A DNA stretch of 64,000 nucleotides, taken from positions 56,538,671 to 56,602,670 of the forward strand of contig OY997640.1 in assembly GCA_963921795.1 (NCBI GenBank), read 5' to 3'. Positions 2,303 to 61,907 of the stretch are shown here, one piece after another. Within the stretch, counting starts at the first letter, position 1. Each line of letters starts with the position of its first letter. The notes below the pieces were generated by a model. The model searched no databases. It was not told the DNA's origin and saw only the letters and a list, made by a program, of their open reading frames with translations. A program made the translations under genes and the position numbers. This DNA comes from Nannobrachium achirus (Eukaryota > Chordata > Actinopteri > Myctophiformes > Myctophidae).

Positions 2303-2383
2303 TTGTGAAAATAGCAGATCTACATCCTCACAACGCCTCGCGTTGCAAGGCGTTGTGAGCATGTAGATCGGCTATTTTCACAA
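2303..2383. repeat. Short hairpin repeat (HP family), full
   Basis: Two arms form a near-perfect palindrome. The left arm runs TTGTGAAAATAGCAGATCTAC, then a stem AACGCCT pairing with AGGCGTT, then the mirrored arm ending GCTATTTTCACAA. About 80 bp in total. This is the first of about 23 members in the window. No protein-coding potential. Confidence 0.85.
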
Positions 2384-2905
2384 TGTCTGAAAAAAACTAG
2401 TTTTATCAGTTTTTTACATAGGTTTCTACGGTTTCTTGGGCTGGATATGGCAGCCTGGAACGGTTGTTCAAGTGCAGCTAAACTTAGCATGTTAGTAAAC
2501 GTGCCACAATTAACAATAATGAATTGCACCTGTGCAGCTGTCAGCTGACCTGCGGAACCTGGGTATATGCCATGGGGCTTTTAAGCCGTGACATCATTTT
2601 GTAGTCAGACCTCCAAGCAGATTTATTATCAATATCTGTACCTCGCTATTTCAACAGATCCGAGACAAAAATAACGACTAAAGTATAATTCTACCACTTT
2701 ACAAAATAATGTCAGACTTAACAGCCCCATTCTGTCAAGCTGGGAAGAATACAAGTCTGGAGAATATAATCATAATATCTTGTTAAAGTGACCATTATGT
2801 TAAATTTTGCATTTGTAGTTATTTTACTGTAATTTAACAACATAATAACCAGCGCAGATAGACAAAGAGACATTCATGGATTTATATTTAAAAGTAACTT
2901 TTATT

Positions 2906-2961
2906 TTCCCCCCTGGACCCAGGGTATGGCATACCCCTGCCATACCCAATTGACGCCCCTG
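2906..2961. mobile_element. Truncated hAT-like terminus
   Basis: The segment ends in TTGACGCCCCTG, the same terminus as the two elements at 25934 and 33067 (CAGGGGCGTCAC in the other orientation). The other end is not visible nearby, so it is a solo or truncated end. Confidence 0.35.
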
Positions 2962-3578
2962 ACAGGAGAGTGTGTTAGTGTGCAGGATGTGATTGAGACA
3001 GATGACCCAGCAGCTTAAAGGTCAATGGTCATCAGCTGAAACTGCAAGCAAGCTTTATTGCACTGGTCTAATATCAACTGAACTGAAAGAAATCAAAGGC
3101 TCTTAAATGAACAAAGAAAGAAGTAAAACAAGTATAAAAGATTAAGGAAATACATGGGTTGGGGGGAATGTTTACATACAGTAAAACACTTGGGTGATGA
3201 TTCTCCAAATCTAACAGTGGGGAAAGCAGAACCGATTTAGGTCGGTCAGACGTTTTTAATCGGATGAAGGGGAAATCTCCCATTATGGTTTGGAGAAGAT
3301 CAATTCTAAGCTGTTGTATCGGCATGTACTGTATCCCCTCATTGCTCTGTTTATCCTCTAATCCATGGAATGACAAAGACTCTGGCATCACCAGGACAAG
3401 CCGGTGTCGGACCACAGTCTCCCATGTTCAGGTTTGACTTAGATCCATTTCCTGTCTGTATGAGAATGGGATTGCCTGAGGGGAGACTTAAATGATTTGT
3501 GTATCGATGATGTGCAGAGGGAATTAGGGGAGGGAAGGGCATATTATAGCTACATGTAATTACAACCCTTGGATTAGC

Positions 3579-3687
3579 GTGTGTGTGTGTGTGTGTGTGT
3601 GTGTGTGTGTGTGTGTGTGTGTGTGTGTGTGTGTGTGTGTGTGTGTGTGTGTGTGTGTGTGTGTGTGTGTGTGTGTGTGTGTGTGTG
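3579..3687. repeat. (GT)n microsatellite
   Basis: About 54 uninterrupted GT units followed by a degraded GTGCACGTTTGTACATGTGTG tail. The open frames across it (poly Cys-Val, poly His-Thr) are artefacts. Confidence 0.98.
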
Positions 3688-3699
3688 CGTGCACGTTTG

Positions 3700-5180
3700 T
3701 ACATGTGTGTGTACGTGCATGTTTTCCTGATATTGGCTACATTTTGGGACAAATCTTGGACCAGTTGATTGGGGACCAAATTGATGTCTGTTTCCCCAAT
3801 TAGATTTTACTGCAGTTTCATAAGATTGGGGTTAAGGCATTAGGGTTAAGGTTAAGGTTTGTGTAATGAGATAAGGAATGACTACAGTATAAATCAATTT
3901 AATGAGTATGACCAATGTGCACGTTCATTTCAACTGAATGTAGGACAGGTGTATTAAAGTGTACACATTTTGCATGTGGGCATGTACGGTACAGTATGTA
4001 CTGTATGCATGTGTCTATTTTTCCAAACTGCCTCTCTGCTAGCCATGAAGTAGAAGTCTTACTTTCCTTGAGAGCTGAAGTAAGAATGGAGCCGAGGCAG
4101 TATAGAGAGATAGGATCAATAGAACTATTACAGGATCATTCAGATAGAAAAGCAGTCTTCCCTCACTCACTGTCCATGCAGCAGATCCAGGCTTGTAACA
4201 ACCTCAACGATATTAAACATGCATTATTACGAGGAAGTAGATTAGTGTTTGGTTTCATAGGAATGCAGGTGAAATGAAATCCTTCAATCGAGTGATGCTT
4301 CACTTTCAATATGGTGTGTTTTTAAGGAAGGGTCAGGCAGCTGTCCATCTCAGCAGGATAGAACACAGTGGTTTGAGGATTTACCGCGTCTGAGCTGCCA
4401 ATCACAGCTCAGACATGCTAATACACCAATCACAGAACAGCAGCTTAGCAACATTAGAATCTTAGTTAATGGTGATATCGAGGCTTTGTTTAAGATATAT
4501 GCATATCACTGTTGCCCAATTCAAATTCTAGCATTAGACAATTTACATTTAAGATGTATAGTGTAGGGTAAACATGTGTTACCATTTACCAATGATAGTT
4601 TAAGGTTCCGTTCCATTTAGTGTAAGAGCCTTACCAGTGAGCCAACATGCACAATAGCAGCAACCTGTATGACCCGAATGGAACAAAACCTTAATTCGTA
4701 TCATTGGTAACACCATGTGTTCATCCTACTATTTTTTGTGGCATGCACACCAGCAATGTGCTAGCCATGCCATTATTAAACCTTATCTTGTGTTTAAGAA
4801 TAATAACTGTAGTAATAATAATTTCATACATTGATTATAATAGACCATGATGGTAGAAAACACAATATAAGTGCTTACAATAAATAAAATGTAAAAAAAA
4901 TACTTCACTAAGAACTGTATAATAATAGTTTAACATTCATATCATGAGCATTTTACCTGAGCAGGTGTCAATATTTCTAGCTCAGTAAACATATTAATCA
5001 TCTGCCAGAACTTGTGGGCAGAGAGTTCCCAAACTGGAACAGAATCTGCAAAGGGCACGTTCAATTATGGGCTTATTCTGAGAGCTGTCCAGGCAGGATG
5101 TTTCCATTGCAGCTAACATGGCAGGTGGTCACCAAACCAGATGTGGAGAAACACTAACAGATGGCTGGGTTGGGCCCTCT
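3700..5180. other. No gene recognised
   Basis: Non-repetitive AT-rich DNA. A few degenerate TTAGGG-like words occur around 3830-3860 (GGGTTAAGG). No convincing coding frame, RNA gene or transposon end was seen. Confidence 0.5.
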
Positions 5181-5183
5181 GTG

Positions 5184-60600: not shown

Positions 60601-60880
60601 GAAACATAGATTCCCCCCCCCCCATAGAGCTAATCAGCCGCCCCAGGGTGGAACCTCTGTGACTTTATAAGACTTGAAAAGAAATACTGTAGGCGGTGGA
60701 TTAACTTTTTTCTTTCCTTTTTTCACTGACAGTCTGTTGGTTGTCAGACGTCTAAATAACGTATTCACTCTTTCCTGCACAGTGCAATCCTCATCAGTGT
60801 TAAGTTAAGCATGGACTTGAACCCTACGGTCCATGGGCATGCATGTCTCGATAGACAAACATTCAGGGAAAATAGACAAA
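57670..60880. other. Repeat-poor stretch, candidate conserved non-coding DNA
   Basis: About 3.2 kb without recognisable transposon ends, SINEs or long microsatellites, unlike the rest of the window. It is AT-rich with several homeodomain-type TAATTA or ATTAAT words (for example near 58198, 58973, 60047 and 60505), and a small hairpin CCACTTCAG-GCGCCGT-CTGAAGTGG at 58525-58549. No coding frame stands out. Regulatory function is only an inference from the lack of repeats. Confidence 0.3.
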
Positions 60881-60886
60881 CATTTG

Positions 60887-60958
60887 TTGAAAATAGCAGC
60901 TCTACAAGCCTACAACGTGTCGCATCATGTTGTGAGTTAGTAGATCAGCTGTTTTTGT
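60887..60958. repeat. HP hairpin repeat, full, diverged
   Basis: TGAAAATAGCAGCTCTACAAG at left and TAGTAGATCAGCTGTTTTTG at right. The inner stem ACAACGTGTCGCATCATGTTG is partly decayed. Confidence 0.8.
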
Positions 60959-60964
60959 CAAAGA

Positions 60965-61680
60965 TATTTGGTATAGAGGAAGGCCACCTGCTACTGAGAA
61001 AACGGGAGGGGAACAAGTAGGACCCTGGCCTGGGTCAACAAAGTATAAGAATGTACAAATGTAACTAAAGGGACCCTTGCTGGTCCTTTCAGTTACCTTT
61101 GAATGCTCGGGGTAAGGGTTTTACAGTGTGTTTTTCCTTTCTTATTTTCACAAGCATCCTTCAGCCAGGGTGCTTAGTGACTTATTATTCTACTTCTAAA
61201 ATATTCTTGCAATCCTAGAAGCAGTGCAGTCAGTGAGTGCCACAGGGAAAGACAAACCTCCCCTGTCTTGAGGAAGCCTGAATCTAAAAGCTGAGCCACA
61301 CACATGCATAGTATAGAATATTTCAACACCTTGGGAGCGAGGCAACAATTTAGAAGCAGCGCTTCTTTTTCAAAATATATTATTGTCAGTGGGAGAAGCG
61401 TTGCTTGCCATTCAAAGTGGGAATTTTGCAGTGCGTTTTAAAGGGAATAGGCACTTCCCTTTGTATCTCTGTCTGTTGATGCAAACAGCGGGGAAGCTGA
61501 GAGGTATAGGTGTAGGCGAGAGACACGGGGTAAAGCTCTGGTGGCACTAAATCTCAGCCCAGCAGGGGGGAGCATGGCTACAGAGCCCAGCATCTCAACC
61601 ACTAAGCCATGGACATTCAAGCACTGGAATAGGATTCAATACATTTGTTGGCCTCGCTTGCCTCCCTGCATGCCTTTCAG
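60965..61680. other. No gene recognised
   Basis: Unassigned DNA. Confidence 0.5.
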
Positions 61681-61682
61681 CA

Positions 61683-61907
61683 TATCGTCGTTGTCGGATG
61701 GAAACCTTGTATGTCCAAAACCGTTTGTTTTGTATCATTTTAAAAATGAAAACAGCTGATCTACAAGCGCACAACACCTCGCGGTGTTTTCACTACTTTT
61801 GTGCGACGGCCTTGTATGATGAAGCAGGGCTTTGCTTTGTGAAAAAAATTACAAATTTGAAACTTGGAGATACAAGGTTTCTGCCCGACAGTGACGATAT
61901 CCAAGGC
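61683..61907. mobile_element. Inverted internal fragment of the CAGGGACGT element family
   Basis: Reverse-complement order of 31770-31985: GTCGTTGTCGGATGGAAACC, CAAAACCGTTTGTTTTGTAT, hairpin, ACTACTTTTGTGCGACGGCC, TGATGAAGCAGGGCTTTGC, AAATTTGAAACTTGGAGATA and TTTCTGCCCGACAGTGACGA. Neither terminus is present. Confidence 0.78.
61746..61793. repeat. HP hairpin repeat, right part deleted
   Basis: TGAAAACAGCTGATCTACAAG then GCACAACACCTCGCGGTG and TTTTCAC. The right-hand TTGTAGATC arm is missing. Confidence 0.7.

Follow-up and report, generated by a model that had tools for sequence, protein, structure and literature searches.

A short near-perfect DNA palindrome inside larger mobile repeats of Nannobrachium achirus, with arms that may be matched by template switching

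The stretch of DNA analysed here, referred to as the window, comprises 64,000 nucleotides of Nannobrachium achirus (GenBank assembly GCA_963921795.1, contig OY997640.1, positions 56,538,671 to 56,602,670 of the forward strand). It harbors a family of hairpins; the hairpin is a short near-perfect DNA palindrome of about 61-80 bp, carried inside larger mobile repeats. A search at up to four mismatches returns 38 arms, which fall into 23 loci, the same number as in a previous reading made from the letters alone (the sequence-only reading). At up to three mismatches, the arm AGCAGATCTACAAGCTCAC has 32 matches in the window, whereas shuffles average 0.04 and never exceed 1. The covariance-model check proposed in that reading recovers 15 folded copies within the window and a further 31 in 200 kb of samples from other places, with the two strands of the same place merged to one by eye. 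The features are listed below; F1 to F12 are carrier-family labels assigned in this analysis, a sign gives the strand where one applies, and the source of each entry stands in brackets.

2313-2373: hairpin, carrier F4, flanks ATTGTG/CACAAT (arm search, flank clusters, covariance model)
16849-16867, +: single arm, hairpin partly deleted (arm search)
17736-17754, -: single arm (arm search)
18131-18149, -: single arm (arm search)
21015-21075: hairpin, F12, matched changes at positions 7 and 10 (arm search, covariance model)
22434-22493: hairpin, F4, matched change at position 13 (arm search, covariance model)
24053-24112: hairpin, F5, a hAT-like AAGTAAAAGTAC repeat (arm search, covariance model)
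25994-26033: short hairpin, tandem arm duplication, right flank F2-like (flanks, covariance model)
26288-26348: hairpin, F2 (arm search, covariance model)
31855-31899: shortened hairpin, F1 (arm search, covariance model)
33154-33214: hairpin, F2, one of an inverted pair (arm search, covariance model)
33424-33484: hairpin, F2, other of the inverted pair (arm search, covariance model)
33749-33820: hairpin, F6 (arm search, flank clusters, covariance model)
34116-34176: hairpin, F1 older flank subtype, loop CGGTG, inverted relative to most F1 (covariance model, F1 comparison)
34781-34841: hairpin, F1 (covariance model, F1 comparison)
36344-36362, +: single arm (arm search)
37025-37043, +: single arm (arm search)
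41222-41240, +: single arm, left flank F8 (arm search, flanks)
43159-43177, -: single arm (arm search)
48919-48950: shortened hairpin, F3 (arm search, flanks, covariance model)
55637-55695, -: degraded hairpin, right arm best kept (arm search, covariance model)
60895-60950: degraded hairpin (arm search, covariance model)
61754-61772, +: single arm, F1 with most of the hairpin deleted (arm search, flanks)

The inner stems quoted in the sequence-only reading are present as written, as is the outer-arm change CTCC/GGAG in the hairpin that it placed at 21008. Its description of the outer arm as constant holds insofar as the arm recurs, but of the 52 copies of 61 bp, 32 have a mispair at position 4 (alignment A1, from which the 29 of 81 two-armed copies with other lengths were left out). 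Likewise, the window copies are real, but they are kin rather than independent: judged by their flanks, those given there as starting at 31845, 34106, 34772 and 61746 belong to the single carrier F1, and those at 33145 and 33418 represent carrier F2 twice, in inverted orientation. At gathering score, Rfam matches none of the hairpins in the window, its sole match there being a tRNA at 39304-39375, and a structured RNA family was set aside for this reason.

Genome-wide, one exact 19-mer occurs 69,781 times and its reversed control not once, 15,639 places have two exact 14-bp arms, and twenty 10-kb samples contain 60 arm loci, which extrapolates to about 0.5 million (a later extrapolation used a count of 59). 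F1-type matches at up to three mismatches number 14,856, a few of them possibly counted on both strands. The 81 two-armed copies contain 19 flank clusters. L001, which repeats the window, was left out of the flank and F1 counts, and L031 and L035, near-duplicates of L029 and L034, out of the flank-cluster and carrier comparisons. Sixty loci (L029-L068, L089-L108) were drawn from occurrences of the exact 19-mer close to one end of contig C1 and are thus biased to consensus-like copies.

F1 is the carrier that has been resolved to its ends. It is a hAT-type MITE of about 460 bp with the hairpin inside: in all six copies shown, the terminal inverted repeat (TIR) CAGGGACGTGCTGG is found at both ends, and identical 8-mers, seen by eye on either side, mark the target duplications. 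The TIR starts with CAGGG, which we take to be a hallmark of hAT elements and on which the hAT-like label of the F1 ends is based. In F1, the hairpin is therefore not a free-standing element, and the earlier idea that it might be a transposition signal is unsupported, since the transposition ends are those of the 460-bp MITE. The F5 repeat looks hAT-like as well. In F3, conserved sequence lies ahead of the CAGGGGGTCC motif, which therefore looks internal. By eye, no direct repeats of constant length were seen to flank the hairpins; the only case of a direct repeat at a hairpin is a 7-bp one in F5, which overlaps the hairpin's own arm. An autonomous element ending in these arms was discarded, as sampled single arms run on into unrelated sequence (by eye), and so were long foldback arms in every carrier, given that z exceeds 4, among 28 copies tested, only in F1 (two), in F8 and, via an unrelated repeat, in L066.

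The hairpins also tend to have palindromic flanks. The per-cluster median match sums to 40, while 5000 permutations average 10.8 and never exceed 30 (18 of the 81 copies had no recognisable A-run on both sides and were left out, and self-pairings of clusters were scored 0, slightly lowering the null). These flank palindromes, some 4 to 7 bp long, are seen in a number of unrelated carriers and, by eye, also in L038 and L100. Together with the single core common to unrelated carriers, they are what one would expect if the hairpin were a mobile element in its own right, entering short palindromes or cruciforms that already exist, preferentially at their centre, and duplicating no target sequence. 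We nevertheless find this explanation unlikely: the flanks of F2, F6 and F12, which are not clearly palindromic, do not fit it, no hairpin-free palindromic site common to copies was found in F3 or F8, and an unsystematic inspection revealed no linked gene or longer element with such ends.

In F3 and F8, the hairpin has been lost by varied internal deletions and, extrapolating from these two families, deletion inside the hairpin appears to explain the shortened and single-arm copies. Among F3, F5 and F8 copies, no site representing the state before insertion was identified. About 43 of 79 F5 copies (by eye) have a uniform hairpin-free form, which was considered as a clean pre-insertion site and dropped, as filled and hairpin-free copies are intermixed on a tree that is compatible with one origin. 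This poorly resolved tree requires 6 changes for 6 filled rows, compared with 5.5 when shuffled, and has no starred branch; by eye, filled and hairpin-free copies have variants in common (L008, L069). We read the hairpin-free form as repeated deletion between direct repeats, a reading that is unproven. Elongated inner parts occur at 387 places, and tip growth as a general rule was rejected because many of the 49 examined are asymmetric (50 were listed, and one of two identical places was left out).

The sequence-only reading had emphasized that the inner stems vary in a compensated manner. Between carriers, this is real: 12 of 28 pairs are changed on both sides in an alignment of 18 rows (A2, chosen by eye out of 14 clusters), whereas shuffles average 4.6 and none of 500 is as high. 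Within F1, 51 near-identical copies, mostly best database matches rather than a random draw, exhibit 19 changes on one arm and none on both. Inside F1, the pattern that the reading had set against its own proposal, founder variants only, is thus largely what is found. The matched changes between carriers are largely founder differences and are family-specific (the comparison of family founders used 26 copies of five families). At the 27 paired positions of F1, no matched double change was seen in the 51 copies, which lends no support to a rate that would produce many compensated changes. For inner stems at large, pairs are matched in 213 of 294 cells (8 of 50 places with another inner length were left out) versus 197.7 ± 5.3 after arm swaps, and a general excess of matched inner stems was set aside, as it is weak by this measure. 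A large share of the inner sites are CpG, and decay there seems to affect one arm.

Strong covariation between carriers is what purifying selection for pairing would produce, if the hairpin worked as DNA or RNA, through transposase recognition or as a small RNA, and compensation were selected in active lineages. We consider this explanation very unlikely. That none of the 19 changes at paired F1 positions is compensated counts against ongoing selection on pairing; moreover, the mismatch at position 4 is widely tolerated, the hairpin lies away from the ends of F1, the copies of F3 have many different deletions, and the window hairpins are without an Rfam match.

F1 has a single fixed mismatch, which is repaired in 4 of the 51 copies (three C/C and one A/A), with 0.23 expected from point mutation (P about 1e-4 if the repairs are independent, 0.02 if there were two events in all). 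In two of the 51, L136 and L143, the loop is inverted; the aligned flanks of L136 equal the consensus and the rest of its stem is unchanged. The three C/C copies have no flank variants in common, and as each carries just 1 to 3, there is room for shared descent. One F1 copy is A/G, a base change with no pair restored, and one is C/A, where the mismatch is swapped and the loop is not inverted, so that a simple flip does not account for it. The older F1 subtype has both loop orientations (CGGTG is present) and a C/C copy. The suggestion that the arms convert each other is thus strengthened by mismatch repair and loop inversion, but the counts are small. Mismatch correction and loop inversion are among the template-switch patterns described by Monttinen and Loytynoja (2022; PMC8794818), along with stem insertions, and we therefore favour arm-to-arm conversion over selection.

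Two further explanations invoke other sources for these variants. Under simple descent, transposons amplified a small number of ancient palindromic subfamilies whose arms were inert after the founders, and the repairs and flips in F1 are inherited minor subtypes. Both the predominance of family founders among the matched changes and the presence of the same states in the older F1 subtype agree with this. It appears improbable all the same, as the founders are matched far above shuffles, which means that something matched them, and as the C/C copies do not share flank variants. Alternatively, conversion or recombination between dispersed hairpins, whose palindromic form would permit exchange in either orientation, may spread founder variants and repair mismatches. 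The C/C and CGGTG states could then have come from the older F1 subtype, in which they are also present, and the F4 hairpins, whose left and right flanks occur in several combinations (by eye), point the same way. This we regard as unlikely: the tracts would necessarily be short, with L136 otherwise unchanged and the C/C copies only 1 to 3 flank bases off the consensus, and free exchange would blur the family-specific matched changes.

The reading we prefer, and hold to be an even bet, is that non-autonomous DNA transposons carry the hairpin as a passenger module, and that its arms are matched by folded-strand template switching. The larger repeats would take along a ready-made internal hairpin and thereby raise its copy number into the hundreds of thousands. 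During replication or repair, a strand may fold at the hairpin and be extended on its own other arm, by intra- or interstrand template switching. Copying one arm onto the other would erase a one-arm mutation or turn it into a matched double change, and might sometimes invert the loop or let the palindrome spread into flanking sequence. If new carriers were founded from such hairpins, their founders would then appear compensated. As to how the hairpin entered many carriers, our guess would be a templated insertion where a short inverted repeat was already present. The arms would thus match because each carrier began with a matched hairpin and, perhaps, because copying errors at the fold occasionally bring one arm into line with the other.

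Several known systems resemble parts of this picture. The hairpins in PMC8794818 are like F1 in showing mismatch correction and loop inversion; they are described there for rRNA and microRNA genes, in contrast to the non-coding repeats with very many copies considered here, and the string 'transpos' does not occur in the main text of that paper. Quasi-palindrome mutations in yeast (PMC3820800) are an experimental counterpart to the present natural repeat family. With its TIR, 8-bp target duplications and length, F1 resembles other hAT-type MITEs, but its hairpin is an additional internal module that is also present in unrelated carriers. Compared by description, the zebrafish element Angel, at several hundred bases, differs from the present palindrome, which is far shorter and internal to larger repeats. 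Both are fold-back repeats in fish, and for Angel and other short inverted-repeat elements, amplification via a folded single strand has been proposed (Izsvak et al., 1999, as reviewed in PMC12628747).

Tentatively, and with some doubt, we suggest that the hairpin family is a natural mutation-accumulation assay, in which mismatches are erased by copying from the opposite arm clearly faster than by point mutation, loops flip and the palindrome grows into its flanks. If this is true, arm copying would itself produce apparent compensatory evolution without selection. Covariation is commonly taken as proof of a selected structure; here, it is strong between carriers and absent from the changes in young copies, and stands beside footprints of a mutational process by which selection would be mimicked. 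Repeat-derived hairpins may consequently pass covariation tests without having a function, which should serve as a warning. At the same time, the thousands of F1-type matches would make the rate, tract length and direction of arm copying measurable in a vertebrate, which is hard to achieve with single-copy hairpins.

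The genome to which the window belongs comprises 1.66 Gb in 564 contigs, and the exact 19-mer of the hairpin arm occurs in it 34,951 times in forward and 34,830 times in reverse orientation; the same 19-mer reversed, as a control, is absent (0 occurrences). In twenty 10-kb stretches taken at round coordinates from nine large contigs (200 kb in total), we found 60 arm loci (summed by eye; none in a rough shuffle of these 200 kb) and 31 folded copies, which extrapolates to roughly 0.5 million arm loci (computed with 59 loci) and about 257,000 folded copies genome-wide. Both 14-bp arms are exact with 14-20 bases between them at 15,639 places. 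At a further 387, such as C3:28718262 on one of the contigs, exact outer arms enclose elongated tips of 21-27 bases; among 49 examined, some carry an identical 10-bp unit added on each arm.

Within the window, the arm matches at 32 places when up to 3 mismatches are allowed, whereas shuffled sequence gives 0.04 on average. The 23 loci of the sequence-only reading were recovered as the same count at up to 4 mismatches, and the sequences confirm the inner stems that it quoted, as well as the compensated CTCC/GGAG substitution in the copy at 21008. With a covariance model trained on 52 hairpins, 15 folded copies are found, tallied by eye. One other feature lies amid these repeats:
39304-39375, minus strand, tRNA match (Rfam RF00005, 38.1 bits)

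The hairpin resides in larger repeats, or carriers, which we sorted by their flanks and labeled F1 to F12; 81 two-armed copies fall into 19 flank clusters. F1 copies have about 460 bp in common, and all six displayed end in CAGGGACGTGCTGG inverted repeats and lie between identical 8-bp direct repeats. F1 is therefore a hAT-type MITE with an internal hairpin. F5 resembles a hAT-like fish repeat, and F2 contains a pair of hairpins that are inverted relative to each other. At locus L066, a different repeat (GTAAATGGTAAATGG...), which we take to be common in fish, adjoins the hairpin on the right at its palindromic end. At L042 (294-471), the hairpin has turned into a tandem array with arms joined at GATC, a unit of about 43 bp and another inner sequence (GCATAGATACGTTGATTAGC).

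In an alignment of 52 hairpins, of which 46 are distinct, pairing holds in 90.5% of cells. Both sides have changed in 12 of 28 pairs, a value reached by 17 of 500 shuffles; for the number of cells with both-side changes and for the covariation score, none of 500 does so. When 18 rows are picked so as to represent 14 of the flank clusters, both-side changes are again seen in 12 of 28 pairs, against 4.6 in shuffles (0/500). With slid partners, 24-42% of cells are paired. Carrier by carrier, these matched changes are mostly constant inside one carrier.

Stem positions with matched changes, by carrier
F1: 16
F2: 21, 25, 26, 28
F4: 13
F12: 7, 10

Private changes in 26 copies of five carriers affect one arm in 16 cases and both in 3 (chance 0.06), two of the latter coming from a mixed collection of F4 copies. 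The pair at position 4 is mismatched in 32 of the 52 hairpins, mostly as A versus C; as this mismatch occurs across several carriers, it is probably ancestral and persisted while other pairs changed together.

A closer view of one carrier comes from 51 copies of F1 whose flanks are nearly identical (median of 0 differences over 40 right-flank bases). At their 27 paired positions, 19 changes affect one arm and 0 affect both.

Position 4 in 51 F1 copies (base on one arm/base on the other)
A/C: 45
C/C: 3
A/A: 1
C/A: 1
A/G: 1

At position 4, 4 changes restore the pair, where the one-arm rate predicts 0.23 (P ~1e-4, or P = 0.02 if the C/C copies count as one event); the three C/C copies have no flank variants in common, but each carries only 1 to 3. 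L136 and L143 have the five-base loop CACCG in the opposite orientation, as CGGTG, and the aligned flanks of L136 are identical to the consensus. Three copies of an older F1 subtype have the inverted loop in two cases and C/C in the third. In the C/A copy, L004:606, the mismatch is swapped with the loop in its usual orientation, which one flip cannot explain. Template-switching footprints include mismatch correction and loop inversion, as described in PMC8794818, and mutations extending identity between arms are reported for yeast in PMC3820800. The main rival to such local arm-to-arm copying is exchange between dispersed hairpins. F4 hairpins combine a few left and right flanks variously (by eye; window 2313 and 22434, L023:1097, L050, L061, L063), as if hairpins served for exchange between elements.

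In many cases the left flank, beyond the shared AAAATAGC end, is complementary to the right one.

Complementary flanks (left/right)
F1: TAGTG/CACTA
F4: ATTGTG/CACAAT
F5: TTTG/CAAA
F8: GTGCTG/CAGCAC
F9: ATAGTGG/CCACTAT
L038 (by eye): GGGACAGA/TCTGTCCC
L100 (by eye): GGC(C)ACG/CGTGGCC

Per-cluster median matches sum to 40, whereas 5000 permutations over 16 clusters, two of them both F4, give 10.8 on average and at most 30. Complementary flanks are absent in F2, F6 and F12, and those of F3 are complementary only after a one-base shift. The hairpin may insert into existing palindromes, or it may seed palindromes that extend into the flanks; no site predating an insertion was found. Where their flanks lie close together, F3 (at least 102 matches) and F8 (13 matches) show many different internal hairpin deletions, with no common hairpin-free form apparent. 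Such deletions probably explain the deleted and single-arm window copies of the sequence-only reading. In F5 repeats L069-L088, as compared with L008, L049, L052 and L068, the hairpin is absent at one exact junction that lies between 7-bp direct repeats, a loss that apparently happened more than once.

We did not find this family described in the literature searched (fish MITEs, palindromes, hairpin template switching, anchovy genome), and the main text of PMC13403563 has no mention of 'MITE', 'palindrom' or 'hairpin'; the core of the family may have an existing entry in Dfam or Repbase. A precedent is zebrafish Angel, for which PMC12628747 describes fold-back repeats with proposed folded intermediates. 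In the best-supported picture, the hairpin travels in transposons, carriers differ by founder variants, young copies decay one arm at a time, and rare templated copying between arms repairs mismatches and flips the loop. In the long term, such copying may turn single changes into matched ones, and would thereby account for the covariation without selection.
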